Assembly (NCBI GenBank): GCA_950097225.1
Contig: CATNCE010000006.1
Span: 1 to 55,156 of the forward strand
Reading direction: 5' to 3'
DNA length: 55,156 nt
Origin: an uncultured Bacilli bacterium
GTDB lineage: Bacteria; Bacillota_I; Bacilli_A; RF39; UBA660
The notes below the pieces were generated by a model. It worked only from the letters and a program-made list of their open reading frames with translations, was not told where the DNA came from and searched no databases. The position numbers were made by a program, and so were the translations under genes. Positions within the stretch are counted from its first letter, which is position 1. Every line of letters starts with the position of its first letter. Positions 9,669 to 55,156 of this stretch are shown in pieces.

Positions 9669-9751
9669 GTGCTTAAATAAATGTGATAATTATTGTTATT
9701 GATAATCTTTTTTGATATACTTAAAAAGAAGATATAAAAGGATTGATGCTT

Positions 9752-10462
9752 ATGAAAGATAAAATTGTTATCTTAATTGCAGTATTATTTTCGTACCTAA
9801 TTCCTAATGTTAGAGTTCTTGCTGAGGGAACTTGCAGTTATAAAGACCAAGCGGATTTAAACAAGGCGGCAGGAAAAGTTGAAACATCTTATTCGTTTGA
9901 ACGTGACGAAACTGGTGCCGAGTATTTTCTCATTTCCATATATAATGTCGTTGATAATATTTATGTTGATGTTGAAAGCGAGACATTAGAAGAAGCAGTT
10001 ATAGCAACTCCTAGTGGATCAACTGCTGGAGTTTATAGTTTTCGTGTTAATGATATTGATAATGTGATTAAATATGAAATGTATGTCCGTAGTTCAATTG
10101 AAGGCTGTCAGGGTGATTTGCGCAAACTTACTTTAACAAAACCTAAGAAAAACAAATATCATGATTATGATGAATGCAAGTTTGAAGATACTGAGAAAAT
10201 TCCTTATTGTCAAGAGTGGATAACTAAAGATTTCGGAATGACGGAAAAAGAAATCCTCGCTAAAATTGAAGAACAGCGTTCCTTAAAACAAGTTATTATT
10301 GATGATACAAAGAATGAAACGGATAACATTCGAGCTTCTAATAAGTTGGAATTATTAAAACAAATAAGAAGATATGCAATATTGGGGCTTTCTATAGGTA
10401 TTTCTCTTGATATAATATTCATCTATTTAAAGATAAGCGACATAAGGAGGTCAAGCCTATGA
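9752..10462 (+). CDS. Surface module A, gene 1: signal-peptide, Ig-like ectodomain, C-terminal membrane anchor
   Basis: About 236 residues. It starts with a signal peptide (MKDKIVILIAVLFSYLIPNV, cut probably after VLA-EG). A roughly 110-residue domain follows, beginning TCSYKDQADLNKAA and containing YSFRVNDIDNVIKYEMYVR and a Cys pair that looks like one beta-sandwich, then a Cys-containing stretch and a coiled region. A membrane helix lies near 208-230 with a short basic tail. It is a clear paralogue of the gene at 15344 (TCSY...LSKAA, YSYCQPWVTK versus YCQEWITK), and its ectodomain also resembles the next gene. The ATG at 9752 is chosen over a TTG at 9743 because of AAAGGA at 9-base spacing. 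Function unknown; probably an anchor or assembly subunit at the cell surface. Confidence 0.7.
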   Translation: MKDKIVILIAVLFSYLIPNVRVLAEGTCSYKDQADLNKAAGKVETSYSFERDETGAEYFLISIYNVVDNIYVDVESETLEEAVIATPSGSTAGVYSFRVNDIDNVIKYEMYVRSSIEGCQGDLRKLTLTKPKKNKYHDYDECKFEDTEKIPYCQEWITKDFGMTEKEILAKIEEQRSLKQVIIDDTKNETDNIRASNKLELLKQIRRYAILGLSIGISLDIIFIYLKISDIRRSSL

Positions 10463-11403
10463 TGCGTATAGAAAAAGAAAAGAAATTTAAAAACGAATAT
10501 ATTCCCGTAGTAATTGGCGGAATCATTCTCGTTTTATTCATTATTTTATTGATATTGGCATTTAGTTATGAACCTAAAAAAGAAGAAATTAATCCGAATG
10601 ACAAGACAGTATTAAATGAAGATTTAGCACTTGAAAAAAATGATTCTAAATGTGCCACAAAAGAGTTAAACGAATTATTAGAGTCTGCAGGTAATATTGC
10701 TGGGAACTATACTTCTCAAACAAAAAAGATGCCAATTGATGATTCTGGTATGACTCCCGAGCAAAAAGAGACTTACTTGTTGGATTATCCGGATGGAACT
10801 TACAATCATGCTTATTTGGAATTGCAAATATCTGGACTTACCTCTGATGTATACTTGCAAATAACCAATAGCTTTAATGACGATGTAGTTACCATCAACG
10901 CCACTGACGCTGATGAATCTGGCATTTACAAATATGAAGCTCCAACGATGGACGAGCGAGTTCGCTATACTATCAATGTTTATGCTAACAAATACGAGTG
11001 TAAGGGAGAAATTATTCGCAAGATTGCCTTTGATACCAAAGTGTTCAACATCTATAGTAATATGTTAGCTTGCTTAAAATATCCTAAATATGATAATTGT
11101 GCAACCTTCTTAACAACACCGATTACCTATAATGAATTTTATAAGGGGTATGAAAACTATCGCAAGACACATCCTGAGGCTGAATATGAAGCAGAGGCAA
11201 ACTTAATAAATGCCTTTAATCCAGATAAAAAAATGACGGCCGATAAAGTTAAGAAAGATGCAAACAAGGATGTATCAGTCTTTATTAAAATTGGCGACAA
11301 ATTTAAAGCTAATAAGGATTTGATTTTAATTTCTTTAACAATTATTGGAATAGGGGTTCTAGTCGTTGTACTGCTAATGTTTATAAGGAGACATAGAGTA
11401 TGA
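10459..11403 (+). CDS. Surface module A, gene 2: membrane protein with Ig-like ectodomain
   Basis: 314 residues with a membrane helix near 16-38, an ectodomain, and a second helix near 287-308 followed by RRHR. The ectodomain has the same pattern as gene 1 (VYLQITNSFNDD, ERVRYTINVYANKYECKGEI) and ends with a helical segment containing two cysteines (ACLKYPKYDNC). AAGGAGG lies 8 bases before the ATG, which overlaps the previous stop by 4 bases, so the module is translationally coupled. The equivalent position of module B is filled by a different, larger protein. No catalytic motif is visible. Its role is likely structural, holding the secreted 1141-residue product at the membrane; this is inference. 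Confidence 0.68.
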   Translation: MMRIEKEKKFKNEYIPVVIGGIILVLFIILLILAFSYEPKKEEINPNDKTVLNEDLALEKNDSKCATKELNELLESAGNIAGNYTSQTKKMPIDDSGMTPEQKETYLLDYPDGTYNHAYLELQISGLTSDVYLQITNSFNDDVVTINATDADESGIYKYEAPTMDERVRYTINVYANKYECKGEIIRKIAFDTKVFNIYSNMLACLKYPKYDNCATFLTTPITYNEFYKGYENYRKTHPEAEYEAEANLINAFNPDKKMTADKVKKDANKDVSVFIKIGDKFKANKDLILISLTIIGIGVLVVVLLMFIRRHRV

Positions 11404-14400
11404 AAAAGAAGTATATAGTTATTATTATATTAGTGCTTTCTCTTTTTATTGGTACTAAGGATGCTTACGCCACTCAAGGTATTGCAAACTTCTCAGGACC
11501 TAATTATTCGACTGGAGTAACTTGGTGTGAAACGGGAAATAATGAAACAGGAATATGTGGAAATTATATCGATTCTCCCAAAGTTATCACCGTTGGAGGA
11601 AAGAGTTATGCTGCTTATTGTATCGATCCAGGACTTCATATGGTGCCTAATACTTCTTATACCTGTGAAACAACAGACGATGCAGGACTTGTTTATTTGA
11701 TGGAAAAAGCACCTCTTTCAACCGCAGGCTACTCATACGAATATTCATTATTTCAATTGGCGTTTCGTATGTATGCAACCAGAAAAAATATAGGAAACAA
11801 CTCTTTGACACTGATGAAAGCTGCCATCGTTAGATATAACCAAATTATGGAAGAAGATGGGGACCCTTATCGTGTTTTAGCTGGATGTAAACCAGGACAG
11901 AATTGTGCCACAGATCCTCACGCCTATTTAGGTGGAAATCTTGGACTCATTGACCAAGCCTGGCAGCTTACTCTCGAAGCATACGCGTTAGCGCCAGATG
12001 AATTCGGTAGTGATATTGCCGGAAACAAGGAAAGTAGTGAAAGTGCTAGTGGAAGTAATGGAACTTTAAAACTTACTGCCGTATTGGGAGAACCAAATAG
12101 TGAGGTAGTTACCTATAAAGTTACTTCAACTCAAAACATCGAAAAAGTCACTTTTGCTTGTGAAAATTGTCAAATACTAAGCCAAAGCTTTAGCGGTATA
12201 TCTGGCGAGATTACAGTTCGTATTTTATCTGACCCATCTTTGTGTAAACCATATAAAATAAAAGCTTATTACAATCCCAAAGGCGTTCAAATATGCCATA
12301 CAACTAACTCAGGATTGTCTGCGGACTTTCAATATTTAGTAACTAGTTTTGAAGAAACTGGCCTTGATGCTGGAGGAACTAGTCCAAATCCAAATCCCAA
12401 TCCGACTGGGGAACCAACAGCAGTATTTGAGTTTGAACCTCCATATTGTGATGACCCAACTTGTTGTCATTTTGGTGGCGATATAGATCCTGGATTTATT
12501 GATGGAGATATTTACAATTGCTGTTATGATAGCACTCATTCTGAAGCAAGTCAGTATGGTCTAAATGATTTATTCTGCTATCACAATGGCTTAGGTGTAG
12601 ATCATTATTTTGCTAAGTGTAATACCGATAGTTTTATTGATAAAAACCTACAAGGATCTTTAAATTCATATTGTAGTATTTATTGTACTGAGCGTGTTTC
12701 TATTGATGTTCCTGATCCAATAACCGCTAAATCTGGTCGTTATTTTGAGTTGTCGAAATCATCGAAGGGAACTAAATCACCTTATATAGAAGGCGCTAAA
12801 CGTTGCAGAATGATCATTGATTATGATAAGTGGAATAGTGACTATATCAGTCAAGTAAAAAAAGAAATTGAAAAATACAATAAATTCCAGCGAGCAAAGG
12901 CTTATGAACTGATGTATGAAAATGCCATTTCTAAGGCAAGTGATGCAGAAGAAACTGTCACTATAACGTGTACGCCAACCGCGCAATCAGGAACAACGCA
13001 AACATGTTCATATTACAAAACTGTTGAAGGATGTAAAAATCCTAATGCATCAAATAACTATTGTAAGGAGACAACTGCGTCTACTGAGAGTGTTACAGCC
13101 ACATCTAAGACAACTGATGATAATGGAACTGCTATAGCTGCCAAGACATTAACAGTTACGTTGAAATATAAAAAATATCCATTTAGTACTAAATATAATT
13201 GGTATGAAACTAAGATTAAACTAGGCGGTAAAACTGGTGTTGAAATTGACCCGGCTGGCAAATATACAACATCCCATGCACAAGATTGGTCAGGCTGGAG
13301 TGATACCCTAGATGAACAATTAGCTTCGATTACGGAATTCAATACTACATATAACAATAAAGAAATTGATGGCACTAGCACGACAGCAACATCAACCAAC
13401 TGTACAGGCTCTGCAACAGTAACATCAACTTCACCAAAAACAAAATATGTATGTTCACGAAATTATGCAGAAGTTGAGAGTCATAAAGAAAATGTTCCTA
13501 AAATTTATGATGATTATAAGGCAAGTGCTAGCTCTGCTAACTCTGAATTTAATAGTGCTGCCCAAACCGCTAAATCGACTGAAGATAAATTAACTCAGTG
13601 TGATAATTTCTTCACATCTGATGCAGCTAAGGCAGAAAACGTTTATAAATTCGCACCAGAGTTAGAAGGATTTGAATATACTCAAGTATACAAAGATGAT
13701 TATGGAAAATTAAAATCTGAAACAACAATCATACCATTTAAAAATACTCCAGGTTGTGAGGTAGAAGGACCGATATTAGGACCATCTACTGCTGGCGATC
13801 CTGATGCATTAGAATCTCCACAATATTCTCAATATTATGGGGATGGAAATGCTTTCATGCACGATTTTAAAGCAACAACATTAGTTTGGGATTCTAACGG
13901 ATCTGGTTATAGAGACTTCTTAGATGGAGTTTATTATGCAGATAAGAAATTAACCCAAGATGCAAAATATATTTCTAAATGTTCTTGGGATGAAGAAGAT
14001 AAGATTATATATACATTAATTCCACGCGGAGAAGCAACTGAGGAAAAGAACTTCAATTATACAATGGGAACACATCAATATCGCGTCTTCTTATCTACAT
14101 TAGCAGGAACTTATGACACTCGCTGGTTAATTAAAAACTTGGGAACAAACGGAAAATTTGATGAAATATTCCAAAATTCAACAGCGTGCTCTAGTAAACA
14201 ATACACTGATAAAGACGGAATGCTACATTGTGGATTAGAAGTAGAAAATGAACTTATAACGGTTGGAACTTGTAATACCGAGAAAACGATAGTTGATCCA
14301 GATGAATGTCCAGATCCAGAACCTGGAGATAACGAGTCGGTATTAAAATTCAAAATTGTTGATCCAGCTCATGTTTTCCCATCATGTAACTCTTTTGATA

Positions 14401-14825
14401 GCTGTGGATTTGGATATAATTGGTTTGAAGGAACTAATGGACCAGAGACCCAAAAAAATATTGAACAAAAAGGTGCTAAAAATTCAACTTACGCACCAGA
14501 AAACATGTCATATTCATTCACTTTTACACCAAAGGATTTAAAACACATTAAAAATTATAACAAGTATCGTGAAGAAAATAACCGTGGTGGATATTCAGAC
14601 TTCGAGCTTGGTTGTCAATGTCCTGACGTTGTTGAAGAATGTAATCCTGTTGGAGAAACTCAAGTATGTAAACGAGTTGATAGCTGTAAAAAGTGTTTGA
14701 GTTCATTCTTAACTAACTTATATAATGGAGAAATAAAATACGGAGGAGCAACCTATAAGGTTACATCTTCCAAGGGTTCGATTAATACTATTCGTGATAC
14801 AAAAATTCATTGGGCAGGGGTGTAA
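11400..14825 (+). CDS. Surface module A, gene 3: 1141-residue Cys-rich secreted protein with TQXA-like thioester domain
   Basis: Signal peptide of about 24 residues ending in AYA. Residues 25-200 look like a TQXA/thioester adhesin domain: AAYCIDPG (Cys74) and LFQLAFRM (Gln119) match the Cys and Gln partners that form an internal thioester in Gram-positive adhesins. A Pro/Asn linker (SPNPNPNPT) follows near 330, then a Cys-rich region (CDDPTCCHF, NCCYDSTH, FCYHNG, YCSIYCTERVS) and a long region with helical and Thr-rich segments. The last 120 residues (EIVDPAHVFP-type, YNKYREENNRGGYSDFEL, CKKCLSSF) align with the C-terminus of the 17444 gene. No LPXTG or C-terminal membrane helix is seen, so anchoring must be by partners. 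AAGGAG precedes the start, which overlaps gene 2 by 4 bases. Confidence 0.75.
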   Translation: MKKKYIVIIILVLSLFIGTKDAYATQGIANFSGPNYSTGVTWCETGNNETGICGNYIDSPKVITVGGKSYAAYCIDPGLHMVPNTSYTCETTDDAGLVYLMEKAPLSTAGYSYEYSLFQLAFRMYATRKNIGNNSLTLMKAAIVRYNQIMEEDGDPYRVLAGCKPGQNCATDPHAYLGGNLGLIDQAWQLTLEAYALAPDEFGSDIAGNKESSESASGSNGTLKLTAVLGEPNSEVVTYKVTSTQNIEKVTFACENCQILSQSFSGISGEITVRILSDPSLCKPYKIKAYYNPKGVQICHTTNSGLSADFQYLVTSFEETGLDAGGTSPNPNPNPTGEPTAVFEFEPPYCDDPTCCHFGGDIDPGFIDGDIYNCCYDSTHSEASQYGLNDLFCYHNGLGVDHYFAKCNTDSFIDKNLQGSLNSYCSIYCTERVSIDVPDPITAKSGRYFELSKSSKGTKSPYIEGAKRCRMIIDYDKWNSDYISQVKKEIEKYNKFQRAKAYELMYENAISKASDAEETVTITCTPTAQSGTTQTCSYYKTVEGCKNPNASNNYCKETTASTESVTATSKTTDDNGTAIAAKTLTVTLKYKKYPFSTKYNWYETKIKLGGKTGVEIDPAGKYTTSHAQDWSGWSDTLDEQLASITEFNTTYNNKEIDGTSTTATSTNCTGSATVTSTSPKTKYVCSRNYAEVESHKENVPKIYDDYKASASSANSEFNSAAQTAKSTEDKLTQCDNFFTSDAAKAENVYKFAPELEGFEYTQVYKDDYGKLKSETTIIPFKNTPGCEVEGPILGPSTAGDPDALESPQYSQYYGDGNAFMHDFKATTLVWDSNGSGYRDFLDGVYYADKKLTQDAKYISKCSWDEEDKIIYTLIPRGEATEEKNFNYTMGTHQYRVFLSTLAGTYDTRWLIKNLGTNGKFDEIFQNSTACSSKQYTDKDGMLHCGLEVENELITVGTCNTEKTIVDPDECPDPEPGDNESVLKFKIVDPAHVFPSCNSFDSCGFGYNWFEGTNGPETQKNIEQKGAKNSTYAPENMSYSFTFTPKDLKHIKNYNKYREENNRGGYSDFELGCQCPDVVEECNPVGETQVCKRVDSCKKCLSSFLTNLYNGEIKYGGATYKVTSSKGSINTIRDTKIHWAGV

Positions 14826-14828
14826 TTA

Positions 14829-15260
14829 ATGAAAGAAAGTTTATGGGGCTATTGGATAGTAGTACTAGGAATATCGATAATGAGTGTAATGATCTTGTTG
14901 CAGAATCTAACGACGACGAGTGAACAAGATTATTACATGATAAGAGAAGTATTAGAGGCAAGTATGTATGAGGCAGTAGATTATGGATACTACCGAGATA
15001 CCGGGGAGTTGAAGATGAATACAGAGAAATTCACAGAGAACTTCATAAGAAGGTTTGCAGAATCGGTAAACATAAATAAGAAATATAACATAACATTTTA
15101 TGATATATATGAAACACCGCCAGCAGCATCAGTATCGATAATAACGACAACAGAACATAGTAACTTTGGAGAGAACCAAGGAGCGGGAGAGACAGCAGAT
15201 GTAGTAAGCCGCTTAACAGGAATCTTATACACAAATAGTAAATACCAACCAAAATCTTAG
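14829..15260 (+). CDS. Surface module A, gene 4: 143-residue TadE-like/DUF5411-like protein
   Basis: One N-terminal membrane helix (about 7-25, YWIVVLGISIMSVMILLQ) is followed by an acidic helix (MIREVLEASMYEAVDYGYY) and a mixed domain, as in TadE-like pseudopilins; I also associate it with DUF5411. No prepilin peptidase motif is evident. The protein is identical, residue for residue, to the one at 20783, and the two DNA copies differ at only three silent sites that I can find. The identity starts at the ATG and runs through the terminator, while the ribosome sites differ. Codon choice (ATA, GTA, GGA, ACG, TCG) differs from gene 3. Confidence 0.75.
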   Translation: MKESLWGYWIVVLGISIMSVMILLQNLTTTSEQDYYMIREVLEASMYEAVDYGYYRDTGELKMNTEKFTENFIRRFAESVNINKKYNITFYDIYETPPAASVSIITTTEHSNFGENQGAGETADVVSRLTGILYTNSKYQPKS

Positions 15261-15285
15261 AAGATAAACTTTATCTTCTTTTTTT
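14829..15285 (+). repeat. Direct repeat copy 1 (gene plus terminator)
   Basis: About 457 bases covering the 143-residue gene and its terminator, almost identical to 20783-21239. Sequence similarity stops abruptly at both ends. Confidence 0.92.
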
Positions 15286-15286
15286 A
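15260..15286 (+). terminator. Terminator of surface module A
   Basis: AGAAGATAAA/TTTATCTTCT perfect stem followed by seven T; same sequence as at 21214. Confidence 0.9.
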
Positions 15287-15315
15287 TTGAGTATAAAAAA
15301 CATTTTTGCTATAAT
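15287..15315 (+). promoter_or_regulatory. Promoter of surface module B
   Basis: TTGAGT (15287-15292), 17-base spacer, TATAAT (15310-15315), 28 bases before the ATG of the first gene. It shows that modules A and B are separate transcripts. Confidence 0.8.
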
Positions 15316-15343
15316 TTATATAAGGATAAAGAGGAATAGATAT

Positions 15344-16060
15344 ATGAAAAAGATTATTTGCTTTTTAATTAGTATTTCGTCTTTCTTTTTACTTAGTTTT
15401 CATGTAATGGCAGAAGAAGATACAACTTGTAGTTATTCTTCGCAAGTCTCTTTAAGCAAAGCGGCCTACAATGTGGATGCTAATTATACGATAAAAAAAG
15501 ATGAACAAAATAATTATTATTTTGAAATAACTATATATAACATTACAGATGAAATATATGCTGTTGTTGAAAATGATATCTCAAGAGATACAATCGAAAT
15601 ATCAGCTAGCATGACGACTAATAATAATTATACATTTCGAGTATATGATATCGTAACCATTATAAACTACACCATTCGCATAAGAGGTTTTAAATATGGT
15701 TGTAACAATGAATTGCGCAAGATCAATATTGTTAAACCCCGTTACAATGATTTGAGTGAAATTAGTGTCTGTAAAAACGATTTGATGCTTGATTATTCTT
15801 ATTGTCAGCCTTGGGTTACCAAGTATTTTAAAGAAACGCGTGAAGAAGTAATAGAGAGAATCAATAATCAATTTAGCAAAAATAATAGCCAATTTACTAC
15901 TAAGTGTATAACTTGTGAGGCAAATGAACAAACCAAAAAGCTATTAAAGCGAAAACAAAATATACGAATTGCTGTTATTATCGGACTCATAATCGGAATA
16001 GTTATTGACACTTCCGTAATAGTTTTATTAATAATAAGATTGAAGAGGTATGATCTATGA
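15344..16060 (+). CDS. Surface module B, gene 1: paralogue of 9752 (signal peptide, ectodomain, membrane anchor)
   Basis: 238 residues. Signal peptide (MKKIICFLISISSFFLLSF, cut near VMA-EE), then TCSYSSQVSLSKAA, matching TCSYKDQADLNKAA of the module A protein, a beta-rich ectodomain (YFEITIYNITDEIYAVVEN), and YSYCQPWVTKYF, which parallels YCQEWITKDF. There is a membrane helix near 208-230 and a basic tail. Identity to the module A copy is low to moderate, so the duplication is old. GAGGAA sits 8 bases before the ATG, and the next gene's start overlaps its stop. Function unknown. Confidence 0.7.
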   Translation: MKKIICFLISISSFFLLSFHVMAEEDTTCSYSSQVSLSKAAYNVDANYTIKKDEQNNYYFEITIYNITDEIYAVVENDISRDTIEISASMTTNNNYTFRVYDIVTIINYTIRIRGFKYGCNNELRKINIVKPRYNDLSEISVCKNDLMLDYSYCQPWVTKYFKETREEVIERINNQFSKNNSQFTTKCITCEANEQTKKLLKRKQNIRIAVIIGLIIGIVIDTSVIVLLIIRLKRYDL

Positions 16061-17433
16061 AAGTAAAAAAAACAAACGAAGAAAAAAAGGAAATTAAAAA
16101 ATTTAAAAAAGATAAGTATCAAAGGTCTATATCCCATGAAAAAAAGGGCTTTAAGATAGAATACATATACATAGCTGGAGCTGCTATAATACTTCTATTG
16201 CTAGTAGCAATTTTGATCTATATGCTTTTTTTCAGTAAAGGCGAAAATCTTATTGTTCCTAACAAGCCTAATTACGATATTTTAGATATTGGTGTAGTTG
16301 ATTTTGCAGACAATGCAGCTAATGCCTTCGATTTAAATACTAAGAAAAATGATAAGATTAATGTTAGCTATAATATCATAAGTGATTATTATAAAAAGGG
16401 AATAACTTTATCAAATACTCAAGCTAATTACTTAAATGATTCATTTATTATCACAAGTGGACCATTATCAAAGGACTCATTTATATCAGCAATTAGTAAA
16501 GATAGTAAACTAAAGTGGTTATTAACTTTAGATGATAAAGAATTTGGCCTTGCTCATGTATATAGTACAGTAAGTACTAACAATGCTTACTACATAAGTG
16601 CTGTAACAGAGCTTAGTAATAAAAAGAATTTATCAGTAATTCAAGTTGATAACAATGGAAAACGCATCGCTACACGCACTATCAAAAGTGCTTTTAACGG
16701 AAAAATCAAAGATATGTTAGTCGTCGATAAAAATTTAATTATCATAGCTCAAGAAGATGATCAAATAAATTTATATTTTACGGATATCAACTTAAAAGAA
16801 AATAAAAATACTATCAACATCAACAAACAATTTAATGATTCTAAATACATAGATTATCAAATGGCTACTAGTTTAGATAATACAATCGAGCTTGTTTGTA
16901 AAAGTGATAATAAGTACTACAGCATTAGTGTCAATGTTGAAGGATACACTGCTTCATTAAAAGAACTTGATGCTATTAATACTTTAGAAACTGATGCTAA
17001 TATAAAGATAAGAAATTATTTAAAGGGCTATGTAGCAAACACAAATGACACCTTATATAAATTAGATCCTGATGCGCGTTTGATCAATAAGTATGAATAC
17101 AAGAATATTAAATTAGAAGATGATTCTGCTTACAAAGAAAAGTATAAAGATGATGAATTTATCAATGTTGAAGATATGGAAAATCGTATAAGCATTGAAT
17201 CTATTAGTAGTAATAATACCAGTATTATTGTAAATAGTAGGACAATATACTCATCAATTTATGATATATATGATTTAAATTTAAATATAAATAAGCGAAT
17301 TATATTAGATGCAGTTAAATATACCTATGACGAAGGCGTTATCTTGAATCGTTTCTACATCGATGGAAATATTTATGAAGTTTACTCATATGGCAGTGAG
17401 ACGCCATCTATTATGATAAGTAAAATAGGTTAG
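16057..17433 (+). CDS. Surface module B, gene 2: membrane-anchored beta-propeller-like protein
   Basis: 458 residues. A Lys/Glu-rich cytoplasmic N-terminus (about 1-45) precedes one membrane helix (near 45-68); the rest is extracellular. The ectodomain repeats a blade-like pattern (FIISGPLSKDSFISAIS, SVIQVDNNGKRIATRTI, LIIIAQEDDQINLYFTDI, YVANTNDTLYKLDPDA), suggesting a beta-propeller. It has no counterpart in module A, whose second gene is a two-helix Ig-like protein, so this position differs between modules and could give different binding or sensing. GAGGT precedes the ATG. Confidence 0.68.
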   Translation: MKVKKTNEEKKEIKKFKKDKYQRSISHEKKGFKIEYIYIAGAAIILLLLVAILIYMLFFSKGENLIVPNKPNYDILDIGVVDFADNAANAFDLNTKKNDKINVSYNIISDYYKKGITLSNTQANYLNDSFIITSGPLSKDSFISAISKDSKLKWLLTLDDKEFGLAHVYSTVSTNNAYYISAVTELSNKKNLSVIQVDNNGKRIATRTIKSAFNGKIKDMLVVDKNLIIIAQEDDQINLYFTDINLKENKNTININKQFNDSKYIDYQMATSLDNTIELVCKSDNKYYSISVNVEGYTASLKELDAINTLETDANIKIRNYLKGYVANTNDTLYKLDPDARLINKYEYKNIKLEDDSAYKEKYKDDEFINVEDMENRISIESISSNNTSIIVNSRTIYSSIYDIYDLNLNINKRIILDAVKYTYDEGVILNRFYIDGNIYEVYSYGSETPSIMISKIG

Positions 17434-17443
17434 GGAGGATAAT

Positions 17444-20400
17444 ATGAAGAAGAGTACAATATTAATTATTACATTATGGTTATTTATTTTCGTTCCTACT
17501 ATAGTATTTGCTGCTAGTGATTCATCTGGAGAACAAGGTGGAAGTGCTGGTATCGTTAATTCATGTAGTCCAAATTGTGTCGGAATGCAAAGATCATCCT
17601 CACTTGCAGGGGTGCGTATTACTTTCGTTGATTCCGAAGGTAAAGCTGTATCCGCATCTAATGGCTTGAGTTTCGACTTTGAAACATACATTGGACCAGG
17701 AAAAGCCGGACTTAATACTCATTATAATGCTTATAATGGAGATCGTAACAAGGTTGCCCTAGCTTCTGGCGGAAATTACACTGAAGGGTTTACTAATGAA
17801 CGTGACATTAAAAAATTTAGTGCCGTTGCTGCCGCATACAATAAATACGTACCTATTGAAGGATCTAATCATTATACCACTTTAAAAACTAGTGGAAATA
17901 CGGGTGGAAATTTAAATGGTATGGGAAATGAACTAGATTTCTTTTTGAGTTTAACTAAATCAGGAAATCCAACTTATGCAGCTGATGTAAATGCCTTCAT
18001 CCGTGCTATCGCAGAAGTATCAGGAGGCTTCAATGCCGATGATTTGATTTATAAAGTAGCCGAAGGATGTAATACTGGGGAAGAGATATTTATCGTTATG
18101 GAACCATTATTCTTCTGGTCTGGTAAAATTAACAATGCTTGGCAAAATTATTTTGGTTCATTAGCTGACTCTTATCATTTCTTTAATGGTAAAGTAGTAG
18201 GTGGTTTGTGGAATATTAACAATCAGGCTTATTTAATTCATTATGAACGTGAACTATCGGCATATAATGGTGCACAAGGGGTAGCAGCCAAAGGATTTAA
18301 TATTCAAAGTGGTGCTGATCTTCTATCAACAGCAGGATTTGCTATTGCTGTTGACTGGGCCAATGATCCAGGGGAGTATTGTAATGCATGTTCATACTCT
18401 GATGGCAAATTTTCCTATGATAATAAAGTATATCCAGGCGATTTAGTTATCCCAAGTAAATATGGAAGTATTCAAGATTTTGCCTTCTCTAATCGTGGTG
18501 AGGGAGGAGCAGGATGTTGTGCACTTCTTAAACCGCAAATTAATTCTATGCCAGCTGAATGGCAAGAGGCTTATAATCGTTTATGTGATGTTCCTGATAA
18601 AGACGATCCTGAGTGTTGTAATCCAGGGGTGCCACTTGAACCAGAAATTGACGTTAATAACTGTTGTACAGATGGAACTGTATCATCTGTTGCTGAAAGT
18701 GAACTCGATGATATATTCTGTTATGATTCTGAACTAAAAGTCGACTTCTATAAAGATCGATGTGAAAATGATAAATTTAAAAATAAAATAAATGATTATT
18801 GTGATCTTTATTGTACTGAACGCGTAACCATGGAAGTACCAGGAGCTATAACCGCAGTATCTGGTCGTTATTTTGAATTAAGTAAGACATCATATGGAAC
18901 GACCTCTCCATATATAGAAGGATATCGTCGTTGTCGTGTTAAGATATACTATAATGAGTGGCGTGATAAATATGTTGAAAAAGTCGACGAAGAAGTAAAA
19001 CAATATAACGAATTCCAAAAGCAATCGTCAATGAAAGCCAACTATGATGATGCCATTGGCACAAAAGAAACCATCACTAAAACTGGAAAAGTAACTGCTA
19101 GTTGTTCTGAAACTGATCCAGTTACAAACAAGACTAAGTCTAATTCGGCAACTGAATCATTTAGTTACACATACTATAAATATACTTTTGCCAATAAACA
19201 TGACTATTACACAGTGTCTTTGAGTAATGATAAATACTCTCGCGTAGAAATAGTAAATGGCTCTAAGAAAAAAGAAAGTCATGAACCATATAGCCTATAT
19301 AAATATGCAGATGCTCTAAAGGCTTATAATGAAGCTAAAGATAAAGCTGCTAAGAGCTGTGGATATGGCAATGTTACATATAAAGGGGATTCTTTTGATA
19401 CGCAAAATATCACTTCTTATCGTGATGAAGATCCTGAATCTGTAGTTAAGGAAATCGAAAAAGCTATTAGTGTTGCCAAATCGGCTTATGAAATTGCCAC
19501 TAAAGATGCTTATAAATTAGAGCAGAATATCGATGAATGCGACTTCTACTTTGATGATTCTAAGAGTCGCTTAGGAGAGGAAGTAACATACTCTGGTAAA
19601 GATGCTTCTAAAAATTATGAATTTAGTCCAGATCTTTTATTCCGTTATTCTGAAGTATACTTGGGATCTAAATCGGAAAAAGTTCTTGATAAATTAGCAA
19701 TTGAGTTTGATCGTGAATGTAATTCAGAAATTATTTATGACGAAAATGAAACGGGTGTTGATGAAATAAAGCCAGATCGTTACTCAGGTGTATATGGTAG
19801 TGGTTCTGAAAAAATGCATGACTTTAACCGCAATGTAACAATTGCTTATGAAAGCAATTTTAACTTATCTAAATATTATGATAATGCCTATAGTGCAGAT
19901 AAGAAACATTCAACTGATGCTAAATATCATACAACATGCAAATGGACAGAAAAAGAAAAGAATACTTACACTTTAGTTCCATCTGGAATAGTTAGTGGAG
20001 AATCATCAACAAACCATACCATTCACAATCAAGAATATCGTATTAATTTAACAACTTTAGATGGAACATATGAAACTTATTGGGATATCGAAGGTATCGG
20101 GCACAAAGGACGATTTACTGACTACTTTAAAAAGGGTGGAACAACTTGTAGCAACCAATTACCTAGTGAAGCAGGTACAACAATAACTTGTAAACTTCAT
20201 GTTGAACATGAACTGATTACGACAGGTACTTGTAATGGCACTGATGGTAGTGAAGTCACTATTAATCCTGAAGATTGTGATGAATTAAAAGAAGGATACG
20301 ATTTATTTAACTTTAAAATTGTTGATCCTGCCGATTTATTCCCAGGTGGAACAACTACAGCTACAGGAACAATCGGTTATAACTGGACGATGAGTCCTCG

Positions 20401-20773
20401 CGGTCAAGATGTAATGAAAGAAATTACTGATAAGGCCGCAACTTCATCGACTTATGCACCAGAAAATATATCTTATTCAGTTAACTTAAGTCCAAAAGAC
20501 TTAAAGAATATCAAAAATTACAATAAAGAGCGTGAATCGAATAATCAGAAGGGTTACAGTGATTTTAATCTTCATTGTGAATGTCCAACCGAAGTACAAA
20601 CAGGATCTCTAACCAATGGAGTAGGTTGTACACAATGTAAAAGTTACTTTATGGAAAATCTAGAAAATGGTATTATAAGATATGGAAATACCGATCATCG
20701 TGTAAATGTATGGGCTTCTCCAAAAAGATTACAAGAAATAAGAGAAGATAATACTCTTAAAAGAAAATGGTAG
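17444..20773 (+). CDS. Surface module B, gene 3: 1109-residue Cys-rich secreted protein
   Basis: Signal peptide of about 24 residues (ends VFA-AS). The N-terminal 330 residues differ from the module A protein, and the YCIDPG and FQLAF thioester motifs are absent. From about residue 385 onward it aligns with module A: ECCNPG, NCCTDG, DIFCYDS, YCDLYCTERVTMEVP, SGRYFELSKTSYGT, SPYIEGYRRCR, later IVDPADLFP, KNIKNYNKERESN and CTQCKSYF near the end. Thus the C-terminal 700 residues are shared and the N-terminal head is swapped. No sorting signal or C-terminal membrane helix. GGGAGG precedes the ATG. Confidence 0.75.
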   Translation: MKKSTILIITLWLFIFVPTIVFAASDSSGEQGGSAGIVNSCSPNCVGMQRSSSLAGVRITFVDSEGKAVSASNGLSFDFETYIGPGKAGLNTHYNAYNGDRNKVALASGGNYTEGFTNERDIKKFSAVAAAYNKYVPIEGSNHYTTLKTSGNTGGNLNGMGNELDFFLSLTKSGNPTYAADVNAFIRAIAEVSGGFNADDLIYKVAEGCNTGEEIFIVMEPLFFWSGKINNAWQNYFGSLADSYHFFNGKVVGGLWNINNQAYLIHYERELSAYNGAQGVAAKGFNIQSGADLLSTAGFAIAVDWANDPGEYCNACSYSDGKFSYDNKVYPGDLVIPSKYGSIQDFAFSNRGEGGAGCCALLKPQINSMPAEWQEAYNRLCDVPDKDDPECCNPGVPLEPEIDVNNCCTDGTVSSVAESELDDIFCYDSELKVDFYKDRCENDKFKNKINDYCDLYCTERVTMEVPGAITAVSGRYFELSKTSYGTTSPYIEGYRRCRVKIYYNEWRDKYVEKVDEEVKQYNEFQKQSSMKANYDDAIGTKETITKTGKVTASCSETDPVTNKTKSNSATESFSYTYYKYTFANKHDYYTVSLSNDKYSRVEIVNGSKKKESHEPYSLYKYADALKAYNEAKDKAAKSCGYGNVTYKGDSFDTQNITSYRDEDPESVVKEIEKAISVAKSAYEIATKDAYKLEQNIDECDFYFDDSKSRLGEEVTYSGKDASKNYEFSPDLLFRYSEVYLGSKSEKVLDKLAIEFDRECNSEIIYDENETGVDEIKPDRYSGVYGSGSEKMHDFNRNVTIAYESNFNLSKYYDNAYSADKKHSTDAKYHTTCKWTEKEKNTYTLVPSGIVSGESSTNHTIHNQEYRINLTTLDGTYETYWDIEGIGHKGRFTDYFKKGGTTCSNQLPSEAGTTITCKLHVEHELITTGTCNGTDGSEVTINPEDCDELKEGYDLFNFKIVDPADLFPGGTTTATGTIGYNWTMSPRGQDVMKEITDKAATSSTYAPENISYSVNLSPKDLKNIKNYNKERESNNQKGYSDFNLHCECPTEVQTGSLTNGVGCTQCKSYFMENLENGIIRYGNTDHRVNVWASPKRLQEIREDNTLKRKW

Positions 20774-20782
20774 GCGAATATT

Positions 20783-21214
20783 ATGAAAGAAAGTTTATGG
20801 GGCTACTGGATAGTAGTACTAGGAATATCGATAATGAGTGTAATGATCTTGTTGCAGAATCTAACGACGACGAGTGAACAAGATTATTACATGATAAGAG
20901 AAGTATTAGAGGCGAGTATGTATGAGGCAGTAGATTATGGATACTACCGAGATACCGGGGAGTTAAAGATGAATACAGAGAAATTCACAGAGAACTTCAT
21001 AAGAAGGTTTGCAGAATCGGTAAACATAAATAAGAAATATAACATAACATTTTATGATATATATGAAACACCGCCAGCAGCATCAGTATCGATAATAACG
21101 ACAACAGAACATAGTAACTTTGGAGAGAACCAAGGAGCGGGAGAGACAGCAGATGTAGTAAGCCGCTTAACAGGAATCTTATACACAAATAGTAAATACC
21201 AACCAAAATCTTAG
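20783..21214 (+). CDS. Surface module B, gene 4: 143-residue protein identical to the one at 14829
   Basis: Same protein as the module A distal gene: N-terminal membrane helix near 7-25, acidic helix EVLEASMYEAVDYGYY, mixed C-terminal domain, TadE-like in outline. Only three silent DNA differences from the first copy were found by eye (GGCTAC versus GGCTAT, GGCGAG versus GGCAAG, GAGTTA versus GAGTTG). The ribosome site here is AGGCGA, unlike GGGGTG in the first copy. Neighbouring genes in the two modules have drifted far apart, so the identity implies recent gene conversion or a recent copy, or strong constraint. Confidence 0.75.
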   Translation: MKESLWGYWIVVLGISIMSVMILLQNLTTTSEQDYYMIREVLEASMYEAVDYGYYRDTGELKMNTEKFTENFIRRFAESVNINKKYNITFYDIYETPPAASVSIITTTEHSNFGENQGAGETADVVSRLTGILYTNSKYQPKS

Positions 21215-49685: not shown

Positions 49686-50246
49686 ATGAAAAAAACAAAG
49701 AAAAGTATCTTAATTCTAGTATTATTACTGACAGTAGGATTCGCTGCTGTAACAACAACGTTATATATTAACGGAACATTACATTTAGGAGCTAACGCAA
49801 CTGATTTCGAAACAAACGTTATTTTTACAAAAGCTGAATTAACTTATAGTGATACTACTAAAACAGCTGTAACAACAGGTTTAATTTCTGAGGATGGTAA
49901 GACAATTACATTTGAAACAGATACTCTAAAAAGTATCGATGAAACAGCTACATTAACTTATGACATTACTAACAACAGTCAATATGGTGCTAGCTTATCT
50001 GACATGGTTTGTACTGTAACAAATGAAGCTGGAACTGATGTAACTGAAGCTGTAAATAACAATACAGAATACATTACATTAACACCATCTGCATTAACAG
50101 GAGTTTTGGCAACTAAAGCAGTAAAAGAAAACAATACTTTAGTTATCAAAATGAGAAGATCATATGCTCCTACAGAAGAAGGAAAAGAGACAACTAGTTA
50201 TACAGTAAGTTGTACAATCGCTGCTGAAGGTACAACTGGAAGTTAA
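49686..50246 (+). CDS. TasA/camelysin-like secreted protein with SipW-type signal peptide
   Basis: 187 residues. N-terminus KKTKKSILILVLLLTVGFAAVTTTLYINGTL is the long basic/hydrophobic signal typical of SipW-dependent proteins such as TasA. The mature domain is beta-rich with TITFETDTLKSIDETATLTYDITN, the same pattern as SITYDAKKIS...EEANLTFWIKN in the DGR target-like proteins at 1 and 54415. One Cys pair (MVCTV, VSCTI) may form a disulfide. It is likely the main exported subunit. AAGGAAGGAA precedes ATG 49686, chosen over a TTG at 49680. The signal peptidase gene follows. Confidence 0.8.
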   Translation: MKKTKKSILILVLLLTVGFAAVTTTLYINGTLHLGANATDFETNVIFTKAELTYSDTTKTAVTTGLISEDGKTITFETDTLKSIDETATLTYDITNNSQYGASLSDMVCTVTNEAGTDVTEAVNNNTEYITLTPSALTGVLATKAVKENNTLVIKMRRSYAPTEEGKETTSYTVSCTIAAEGTTGS

Positions 50247-50279
50247 GATTGATTATAAAATAAAAATGTGGTGAGAAAT

Positions 50280-51413
50280 ATGTTAAAGTATATGTTAAAA
50301 ATTTTGACATTAGTATTAACAATTTCTCTCTTATTCGTTAATACATTCTTAACTAAGAGTGTTAATTATGGAGCTACTCTAATTATCATAATAGTTGCCC
50401 TCATCGCGAGTTTCATCATATTTGGATATCGTAGAGTAGATAGAAGAGATTTTAAATATAAATTATTACTCGTACTAGGATTAACATTCTTGCTACAGAG
50501 TATGTTATATTTAATTGCTACTAAATCAGGTTACAGTGTCAATTATAGTAGTATATTTAAGCACTATATTCCTGGAAAAATAGTTCTGTATGTTTTCCTT
50601 ATTACAATAGTAAGGGAACTTATCAGATATTTAGTAGTAAATACTAATACTAATAAAAAAATAGAATATTACATATTACAAGCTCTTTTAATTATAATGT
50701 GTGTTATTGTTGATTTAAGTATTGCAACAAAAGTGTATACATTTTCATCATTTACTCTTATATATGAATTTATAAGTATGTTTTTAATACCAAGTGTAGC
50801 TAAAAATATCTTATTATCTTACTTAAGTAAAATAGGTGGTTATGTTCTAACTTTTGCATACGTTCTAATAATGGATTTATACATTTATGTAATACCAGTA
50901 AAACCTGATTTAAATATGCTTTTAAATGCTGTTGTTTTATTAGTATTTCCATATTTAGTTTATAACTACATTAGCAAACTTAGTATAAGAAGGGCAACTG
51001 TAAAGAAAAAAGAAAAGAAAAAGAATAATAAGATAATTAATATTTTATCGACGATTGTCTTCATCATACTAGTATGTTTAGTATCTCGTGAATTTAAGTA
51101 TTCAATGATAGGTATTGGATCTGGATCAATGACTGGTACAGTCAATAAGGGAGACGCTATCATATATCGTAAGTATGAACAGGACGAGGACATAAAAGAT
51201 AAAGTAATTGTATTTAGAAGAAATAATGTAATGATTGTGCACCGAGTTATCAAAAGTTACATCATGGATGGCGATGTTGTCTATCAAACCAAGGGTGATG
51301 CAAATGAATCACAAGATAATTGGTTAGTAGAAAAAGCAGATATAATAGGTATTGTAGAATATCGTATACCATTTATTGCCTGGCCTTCCGTTCTCTTAGG
51401 AGAGTTATTTTAG
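50280..51413 (+). CDS. sipW: SipW-type (ER-like) signal peptidase I with extra N-terminal membrane domain
   Basis: 377 residues, against about 190 for Bacillus SipW. The first 240 have around seven hydrophobic helices; a Lys-rich loop (VKKKEKKKNNK) and a further helix lead to the peptidase domain. That domain shows SGSMTGTVNKGDAIIYRK (catalytic Ser near 283) and VMIVHRVIKS (His near 321, in place of the Lys of ordinary bacterial enzymes), then QTKGDANESQD with the conserved Asp. Ser-His is the ER/SipW pattern. Next to a SipW-type substrate gene, it most likely cleaves that protein. GGTGA 5 bases before ATG 50280 fixes the start. The N-terminal multi-pass part is unexplained. Confidence 0.85.
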   Translation: MLKYMLKILTLVLTISLLFVNTFLTKSVNYGATLIIIIVALIASFIIFGYRRVDRRDFKYKLLLVLGLTFLLQSMLYLIATKSGYSVNYSSIFKHYIPGKIVLYVFLITIVRELIRYLVVNTNTNKKIEYYILQALLIIMCVIVDLSIATKVYTFSSFTLIYEFISMFLIPSVAKNILLSYLSKIGGYVLTFAYVLIMDLYIYVIPVKPDLNMLLNAVVLLVFPYLVYNYISKLSIRRATVKKKEKKKNNKIINILSTIVFIILVCLVSREFKYSMIGIGSGSMTGTVNKGDAIIYRKYEQDEDIKDKVIVFRRNNVMIVHRVIKSYIMDGDVVYQTKGDANESQDNWLVEKADIIGIVEYRIPFIAWPSVLLGELF

Positions 51414-51430
51414 TAAGTGGAGTGATTATT

Positions 51431-52516
51431 ATGGAAAAAATCGAATTACCAATTTTAAAGGGAGATAATAGTAGAAAGTATATTCCAATGACTTTCGTTG
51501 TGGGTATTGCTGTTTTAGTTGTATTATTGTTAATTACTAGTTTGTCTTTGACATTTAAAAAAACATATAAGATTAACTATAGTGATCAATCAGACTTAGA
51601 CTATAAAGTATACTTAAAGAAAAATAGTCACTATGACGTTAAGTATTTAACTAAGGATAAGCAATATATTTCTTCATTAATCGATTATGTTGATGCTGAT
51701 TTTTCATACAATTTCCGCAGTGAAGACGACATTAAAATTGATTATGAATACTACATATTAGCTTCTCTAAATGTAACTAATAATGATGGTAAAATAATCT
51801 ATGATAAAAAAGAATATTTACTAAGTACTAAAAAGAATAGTGCTAATGATAATAGCTTAAGTGTTAAAGAAAACGTTAAAGTTGATTATACTAAATATAA
51901 TCAAATGGCTAAAGACTTTATCGATACATATGGTTTAACTGCTAATGCTAACCTAGTAGTTAGTTTAATTGTCGATGTAAAGGGAACAAATAGTAAATTT
52001 GATAAATCAATTAGAGATAATGGGGTTATTACCCTAAATATTCCACTTACTACTAAAACAGTAGATATCTCAATGGATTATGAACTTTCAAATAATAAGA
52101 ATGCTGTATTACAATACAGTGAAGCAATTATCAAAAATAAGGCTTTATTTACAGCCGGAATCGTATTTATTATTATTGATGTATTATCAATCGCTGCAAT
52201 AGTAATATATCTTATTATGAATAGAGATGAAAAAGAAAATTATCGTGTTACTTTAAACAAGATACTAAGAGATAATGAAAGATATATCAGTGAGACTGTC
52301 ATTACCGAAAGAGTAGAAGATATGTTAAAAACTCGTTCTCTAAGAATCGAAGTGGTTAAGAGTTTCAATGCTCTTATGGATATTCGTGATAGTTTAAATA
52401 AACCTATCCTATATCATGAAGAAAAACTTGGAGAAGAAGCTGTATTCTACATCATAAGTGAACAAATCGGTTACATTTATATCATGAGTGTAAATGACTT
52501 TAAAAAGAAAAAATAA
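51431..52516 (+). CDS. DUF5305-like membrane protein, accessory of the SipW operon
   Basis: 361 residues. One helix near 19-41, an extracellular domain of about 205 residues with YKINYSDQSDLDYKVYLKKN, YISSLIDYVDADFSYNF and IDYEYYILASLNV, a second helix near 248-272, and a cytoplasmic tail of about 90 residues containing SLRIEVVKSFNALMDIRDSLNKPILYHE. This matches what I know of DUF5305, often adjacent to signal peptidases. Possible chaperone or anchor for the exported fibre subunit. GGAGTGATTATT before the ATG; 17 bases after the peptidase stop. Confidence 0.75.
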   Translation: MEKIELPILKGDNSRKYIPMTFVVGIAVLVVLLLITSLSLTFKKTYKINYSDQSDLDYKVYLKKNSHYDVKYLTKDKQYISSLIDYVDADFSYNFRSEDDIKIDYEYYILASLNVTNNDGKIIYDKKEYLLSTKKNSANDNSLSVKENVKVDYTKYNQMAKDFIDTYGLTANANLVVSLIVDVKGTNSKFDKSIRDNGVITLNIPLTTKTVDISMDYELSNNKNAVLQYSEAIIKNKALFTAGIVFIIIDVLSIAAIVIYLIMNRDEKENYRVTLNKILRDNERYISETVITERVEDMLKTRSLRIEVVKSFNALMDIRDSLNKPILYHEEKLGEEAVFYIISEQIGYIYIMSVNDFKKKK

Positions 52517-54414: not shown

Positions 54415-55156
54415 ATGAGAAAGAAAAGTATCATATATTTCTTTGTTATCGCACTTGTAATAGGTTTTGCTAGTGTAGCAACTAATCTAGTGATAAATAA
54501 TACTTTAAATATAAGTTTTAATAATACATTCTTGGATGACGTTGTATTCATAAATACTAAAACTGAGGGAACGGCTAGTATAAGTGAAGATGGGAAAACG
54601 ATTACCTATGATGCCAAGAAAATAAGTGCAATGAATGAAGAGACAAGTTTAGCATTCTGGGTGAAGAATAAAAATACTCAGTATGATGCAGATGTAATCA
54701 TTAATTGTGGTATAGATGATAATTCAAGTAACTTAGTTAACTTAGTAGATGTAACAATTGAGCCAGATAAATTTACCTTGGTATCTAATGAAGTTGTGTC
54801 TGGCGAAGTAAAAGTAAAGTTAAAAAGTGTAGTAATTGAAAGTATAGATGGAAACTTTACATGTGAATTAATAGCAACACCATTAGAAAGAGAAGAGACA
54901 GGTGTAATAATTGATACATGTGTCAATGCATTAAATGGAGCAGAGCCTGTGATAAATGGCGAGTTAATACCTATTGAATTATCTGATAATGGTGAAGTTA
55001 CATACTCTGATGAGAGTGAGTCTTGGTACAACTATTGTGAACAGAAATGGGCAAATGCAGTAATATTAGTTGATAGTCCAAGTAAGCAATATAATGTAGG
55101 AGATACAATACAAGAAAGTGATATTGAGTCCTATTTCGTATGGATACCAAGATATA
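54415..55156 (+). CDS. Second DGR target-like protein (3' end outside window)
   Basis: The visible 247 residues include the start missing from the gene at position 1. SipW-type signal MRKKSIIYFFVIALVIGFAS is followed by LVINNTLNISFNNTFLDDVVF. The rest is very similar to residues 1-220 of the first gene: ASISEDGKTITYDAKKIS, NYCEQKWANAVILVDSPS and YFVWIPRY at the edge. The two must be recent paralogues. The C-terminal lectin-like domain and any variable region would lie beyond the window. AGGAATGTC precedes the ATG, with promoter at 54361. Confidence 0.82.
   Translation, partial: MRKKSIIYFFVIALVIGFASVATNLVINNTLNISFNNTFLDDVVFINTKTEGTASISEDGKTITYDAKKISAMNEETSLAFWVKNKNTQYDADVIINCGIDDNSSNLVNLVDVTIEPDKFTLVSNEVVSGEVKVKLKSVVIESIDGNFTCELIATPLEREETGVIIDTCVNALNGAEPVINGELIPIELSDNGEVTYSDESESWYNYCEQKWANAVILVDSPSKQYNVGDTIQESDIESYFVWIPRY

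Follow-up and report, generated by a model that had tools for sequence, protein, structure and literature searches.

On what structure are binding heads diversified by a DGR displayed, and does the operon encoded beside two such heads supply it? The question is raised by a contig (C6 of its assembly, CATNCE010000006.1) from an uncultured Bacilli bacterium, the whole of which, 55,156 nucleotides, is the window analysed here. Known cellular DGR targets mostly come singly or in small numbers, and the mount of their variable heads is rarely clear. This one genome (assembly GCA_950097225.1; 1.61 Mb, 92%-complete, 58 contigs) contains dozens of heads, most of them on a domain, the N-domain, common to an operon with a linked signal peptidase. 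A first-pass annotation of the window had proposed that operon and targets together build a surface fibre with diversified binding tips. With heads and operon sharing a domain, such a fibre can be tested for in a laboratory Bacillus, and the system may help to explain which targets uncultured gut Bacilli bind and how such diversity pays.

The operon comprises three closely spaced genes on the plus strand, whose boundaries had been placed correctly. The first (49686-50246) encodes a small N-domain protein of 186 aa, the proposed shaft subunit, with a signal or transmembrane (TM) segment, the residues G-F-A, a conserved strand and an Ig-like sandwich. It is followed by a SipW/ER-type signal peptidase of 377 aa (50280-51413) and by a DUF5305 membrane protein of 361 aa (51431-52516), the operon partner of the peptidase. 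Both DGR target genes of the window, also on the plus strand, are cut by its ends. The one at 13-1608 has lost its 5' end and encodes an N-domain (about 13-420) and a lectin head (about 460-1605), including a variable region (VR) at 1486-1594, 109 bp of which were compared with the template repeat (TR). The other (54415-55156) encodes a signal ending GFA↓SV, an N-domain and the start of a lectin head. N-domain target genes are likewise broken at several further contig ends, which suggests that these repeats broke the assembly.

The N-domain common to the small protein and both window targets, noticed at first as a sequence pattern, is a matter of real homology: with the 49686 protein as phmmer query, the 54415 target was matched at 4e-12 and the 5'-truncated target at 7e-7. 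The observation is confirmed and is much larger than could be seen from the window, as the 186-aa protein has 64 matches across its own 1.6-Mb genome (best non-self 6e-18), and the stretches retrieved around these contain about 60 matching reading frames. Most N-domain proteins are about 560-570 aa long and end in a C-type-lectin head, the nearest relative of which is the DGR variable protein TaqVP. The remaining C-termini are a variable head of a second type (in proteins of about 405 aa), PARCEL/DUF285 repeats or a GH3 enzyme. N-domain-GH3 glycoside hydrolase fusions were seen at L023:1049-5353 and at L124:9414-13310.

The diversification itself can be traced in the sequence. Two reverse transcriptases (RTs), matched by PF00078, are encoded on contigs C49 and C16, and their motifs (IGNFTSQ and IGNMVSQ) fit IGxxxSQ, the form known from DGR RTs. 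The template repeat on C49 reads ...NPWFNRGGNYNNGSNAGQFNFNRNTGDANSNNSARLILLG. Compared with it, the VR of the window target at 13-1608 is changed at 20 of 34 adenines and at 0 of 75 other bases (p 4e-13). The RT genes, the TR and these adenine-specific differences bear out the assignment of the window proteins as DGR targets. Among the 43 genes of the first head type whose 3' end and variable region are intact, 14 show at most three differences at the 75 non-adenine TR positions compared and 16-20 changes at the 34 adenines (252/476 adenines against 16/1050 other positions when pooled). At least these 14 copies look like recent DGR products. The other 29 form a graded series with 5-40 non-adenine differences and look like targets that have drifted away from the template. 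The low-drift genes encode N-domain proteins and also proteins on a different stalk. None of them shares a contig with the RT, so the C49 DGR acts, or acted, in trans.

Between TR and RT on C49, an Avd-like frame (about 540-900 of locus L061) is interrupted by an in-frame TAA, which may reflect an inactive DGR in this population or an assembly error. A relative, G002, has an open Avd-like frame at the equivalent position and, within a single contig, the textbook order of target, TR, Avd-like gene and RT; its target carries an N-domain, and its RT shares 70% identity with the C49 enzyme. In the second DGR, on C16 (L057:7340-8554, minus strand), the template does not occupy a non-coding spacer: it is read in frame as the 3' terminal part of an N-domain target-like gene, which precedes a 113-aa gene and the RT. 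Relative to this template, four further genes are changed at 13-15 of 21 adenines and at 4-15 of 53 other bases.

Predicted structures support the lectin-like nature of the variable head. In the model of the window target (531 aa, built with 39 sequences, mean pLDDT 85.9), the head has a C-type-lectin fold that aligns with TaqVP at Z 19.3 over 252 residues (rmsd 3.5), with further neighbours at Z 9-11 including PvdO, Mtd (9.5) and formylglycine-generating enzymes (FGE; 9.3). The N-domain of the same model resembles PapD/MSP-type Ig domains at Z 7-8, a range possible for a merely common arrangement. The monomer model of the 186-aa protein (pLDDT 79.8) is predicted to be a pilin/PapD-like Ig sandwich; its top neighbour is FimA (Z 7.3 over 120 residues), followed by PapD-like and MSP domains (Z 6-7.3). 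TasA was not among the VIA-align neighbours listed for this model, an absence that excludes nothing. The 49686 protein has no significant Pfam or NCBIfam match. Membership of the TasA family was examined and rejected: PF12389 is absent from the protein and from 9/9 genus genomes, with a positive B. subtilis control, and an N-domain profile searched against PDB sequences gave chance-level matches only. The earlier description of the protein as TasA-like is therefore kept as an analogy, the fold matches being of the FimA/PapD/MSP type.

Relatives of the head are encoded in more than 550 stretches of Bacilli genome contigs, and no relative of the target alignment was found in 2.9 million viral contigs. 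The best 80 of these loci are mainly from MAGs of uncultured Bacilli, those of the rabbit gut ('Lapin') and others, and in them the heads follow the N-domain, a prepilin N-terminus (KKGFTLIELLAVI), a camelysin-like signal (TYAYW) or a short TM stalk ending NVQDSIDELY. Heads joined to type IV prepilin N-termini, as seen in other Bacilli, are an independent hint of display on structures resembling pili. Some DGR heads of the genome studied here are carried on an unrelated stalk (LCNAKDI...DALNDLY), which means that the head needs no N-domain fibre. At two loci in other Bacilli MAGs (L204 and L206), three to four variable-head genes stand in tandem, their products having camelysin-like or TM-stalk N-termini.

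How might the N-domain proteins be exported? Across 56 of them, the hydrophobic segment typically ends L-V-I-G-F-A and is followed by (S/A/G)-V-(A/T)-T-(N/T)-L-(I/V)-I-N, so the SipW-style signal that had been noticed in the 49686 protein and the targets is common to the family as GFA↓(S/A)V. The F and A are invariant and the G has a single exception (CFA in one gene), an invariance that is partly circular because the signals were collected with the pattern [GC]FA, genes whose start was lost at contig ends being excluded. In the 49686 protein the signal sequence is MKKTKKSILILVLLLTVGFA (49686-49745), which has an aromatic P2 and Ala at P1 and ends at a putative SipW-type site. The aromatic P2 of TasA (site TWA↓AF) hinders cutting by ordinary SPase I, so that TasA is a poor substrate for that enzyme and is left to SipW (PMC10269814); the conserved Phe at P2 of the N-domain signals is the same feature. 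The first strand of the presumed mature protein, AVTTTLYINGTLHLG (49746-49790), is a candidate donor strand, and the model has a strand at residues 25-36. Among 16 N-domains of less than 40% identity, the first 15 residues after GFA have a mean pairwise identity of 0.41 as compared to 0.22 for the rest. The corresponding segment of TasA is its donor strand (PMC9674648). Given the aromatic P2 and the conserved strand, cleavage after GFA and strand exchange between N-domains are the natural inference, and the conservation of the strand is suggestive of donor-strand completion.

The 50280 enzyme scores 63.5 bits with TIGR02228 (sigpep_I; cut-off 51.85) and 25.3 with PF10502 (cut-off 22.9). In an alignment of 18 S26 proteins, Ser283, His321, Gly339-Asp340 and Asp346 are invariant, which makes it a Ser-His enzyme of the ER/SipW type. 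About 240 additional residues with many membrane segments precede its catalytic domain. The enzyme scores 46 bits against the Bacillus SipW equivalog NF046067, below the cut-off of 190. The 51431 protein is a DUF5305 protein, as had been supposed (PF17231, 54.6 bits; cut-off 29). The first-pass annotation had called the enzyme the matching Ser-His peptidase; Ser-His it is, and the match to the N-domain signals is plausible only, as the genome has five other S26 peptidases (six in all, on contigs C1, C6 and C16), all of them Ser-His. None of the six exceeds the cut-off of the bacterial P-type model TIGR02227 in this 92%-complete genome. The other S26 peptidases adjoin substrates with different signals (ATFAYF, GTYAKY and similar), which favours, and does not prove, the pairing of the 50280 enzyme with the N-domain proteins. 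The genome thus appears to hold several parallel SipW-type systems, each peptidase adjoining differing signal-bearing proteins.

Codon usage gives an indirect sign of how much of each protein is made. Scored with weights derived from 20 ribosomal protein genes, the small subunit reaches a codon adaptation of 0.72, the top value among 41 window genes and level with the ribosomal mean of 0.73, as compared to 0.685 for the DUF5305 protein, 0.58 for the peptidase and a mean of 0.58 for the targets (n = 12). The 49686 protein is probably abundant, and an abundant headless subunit with scarcer headed ones would be the stoichiometry of a shaft and its tips. With the one ribosomal table applied to all genomes, the small subunit ranks top in G005 and G006, high in the G002 arrays, second in G003 and middling in G004 and G036, so that the signal is clear in G000, G005, G006 and the five-gene G002 array and not in G003, G004 and G036. 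It exceeds the peptidase in all relative operons tested, save one extra G036 copy.

The operon is conserved beyond this genome. The order of small N-domain protein, long SipW-type peptidase and DUF5305 protein recurs within the genus in G003, G004 (two copies), G005, G006 and G007, and the same layout with a more distant small protein is found in G001 and in the family members G014, G035 and G036. A DUF5305 gene lies directly 3' of the peptidase gene in 12 of 14 relative loci with a full-length peptidase (the exceptions are L125 and L126). Among the genus relatives searched, only G002 has a match to the C49 RT, so the operon is independent of the DGR. In G004, an N-domain-GH3 fusion gene starts 14 bp after the DUF5305 gene at one locus (L124), and at the other operon copy a SipW-signal protein that bears another head is encoded close by on the 5' side of the small-subunit gene. 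In G002, small N-domain proteins occur in tandem arrays of five and three (L119 and L132:16667-18699).

We propose, with confidence evenly divided, a SipW-type fibre in which the abundant 49686 protein forms the shaft and rare DGR-diversified lectin subunits are added, through the dedicated export and assembly operon at 49686-52516. The Ser-His peptidase would cut N-domain precursors after GFA, exposing the conserved hydrophobic strand. This strand would enter the Ig sandwich of an adjacent subunit, in the manner of TasA and other donor-strand fibres, to give a thin fibre of the 186-aa protein, with the DUF5305 protein as a possible membrane base or assembly factor. Proteins made in low amount with the same signal, strand and N-domain could then join, their C-terminal cargo being lectin heads, PARCEL repeats or GH3. 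The last step can be read from the sequence itself, in that a single DGR, with RT and TR on C49, rewrites the VRs of many heads in trans. Such a fibre, or surface coat, would display a large repertoire of binding heads that can be renewed.

A fibre is indirectly suggested by the ribosomal-grade codon bias of the small subunit, the conserved strand after the presumed cleavage site, the N-domain fusions inside or beside the operon in relatives, and the same heads on type IV prepilin N-termini in other Bacilli. It is also favoured by the top fold neighbour of the small subunit, FimA, being a donor-strand pilin, at a Z value that possibly reflects a common arrangement. The weak range of the N-domain Z values, the absence of PF12389, the five other S26 peptidases, the unrelated stalk of some heads and the weaker codon ranking in G003, G004 and G036 count against it. 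The more specific version, a donor-strand fibre with one abundant Ig-like shaft and rarer subunits from a genome-wide library of lectin paralogues (some 40 or more, of which a single DGR has recently rewritten at least 14 in trans), is put forward more tentatively; it would place modular cargo (lectins, repeats and enzymes) on one assembly domain. If true, SipW-type fibre assembly extends beyond the TasA family.

The main rival is a set of membrane-anchored variable adhesins that form no fibre, in which the hydrophobic segment would be kept to anchor the protein, the Ig N-domain would serve as a stalk and the 49686 protein would be a headless family member at the surface. The targets end ...SARLVLLG, with no sortase motif or C-terminal anchor visible after the VR, so an uncleaved N-terminal anchor would explain their retention; other heads do sit on short TM-stalk N-termini, and T. 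denticola targets are largely lipoproteins (PMC4891356). We nevertheless consider this rival rather unlikely, because GFA with its aromatic P2 is kept family-wide and followed by residues more conserved than the remaining domain, the linked gene encodes a signal peptidase, and ribosome-like codon bias in a headless subunit suits a polymer shaft. Cleavage might also simply release the N-domain proteins as soluble variable lectins or decoys, each signal being handled by any of the six SipW-type peptidases. Six Ser-His enzymes, none of them above the TIGR02227 cut-off, would permit such loose pairing of peptidase and substrate; the different signals beside the other peptidases and the linkage of N-domain fusions to 49686-type operons in relatives make this explanation improbable.

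That the 49686 protein is TasA proper, in a true TasA/camelysin system forming TasA fibres, is highly improbable: its aromatic-P2 signal and a gene content like that of sipW-tasA and the C. perfringens sipW-bsaA operon (PMC7395162) are outweighed by the missing PF12389 and the low NF046067 score. The least probable explanation, which we reject, is a prophage or phage-tail origin with the targets as tail-fibre-like proteins. Many known DGR targets are phage receptor-binding proteins (PMC10743442), whereas target relatives number none in the viral contigs against more than 550 stretches in Bacilli, and the signals and N-domains are of the kind found in secreted cell proteins.

The fibre proposed here also has precedents, and the claim that no system of this composition has been described was too strong, as DGR-diversified tip pilins of the Bacteroides type V pilus have been reported (Macadangdang et al. 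2024, as cited in PMC12632263). These are the nearest known system: in both, a gut bacterium uses a DGR to vary a binding domain whose presumed location is a polymeric fibre at the cell surface. The assembly route differs, Bacteroides type V pili being built of Gram-negative pilins with a protease-opened groove, whereas the present system has a SipW-type peptidase, an Ig N-domain and dozens of paralogous heads. With B. subtilis TasA/TapA/SipW (PMC9674648, PMC10151520) it has in common a dedicated ER-type peptidase, an aromatic-P2 signal and an adjoining major-subunit gene, donor-strand assembly being a proposed parallel only; it differs in lacking PF12389 and in its smaller subunit, DUF5305 partner and lectin-headed paralogues. 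The C. perfringens sipW-bsaABCRSD locus yields a SipW-dependent, sortase-free polymer of a subunit of ~23 kDa, comparable to the fibre proposed here; in contrast to the present system, no variable heads or DGR are seen in the available text (PMC7395162). In open-access literature we found nothing on a DGR together with SipW and nothing on DUF5305, which is weak as an absence.

At the level of the heads, T. aquaticus TaqVP and T. denticola TvpA similarly have a C-type-lectin/FGE-type VR scaffold at the C-terminus; unlike them, the heads here occur in about 40 copies, most on the N-domain common to the export operon. As far as the accessible parts of the two reports go, T. denticola strains have up to 8 DGR targets (PMC4891356) and Thiohalocapsa has 15, with a number of DGR loci called unusually high (PMC10907252). 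The count here exceeds both, and no record is claimed.

Elsewhere in the window, at 9743-21214, a four-gene cluster of secreted or membrane proteins is present in two tandem copies, with products of 239/314/1141/143 aa and 257/458/1109/143 aa. The two 143-aa proteins (at 14829 and 20783) are identical to each other, and a YCIDPG segment in the 1141-aa protein recalls thioester surface domains.
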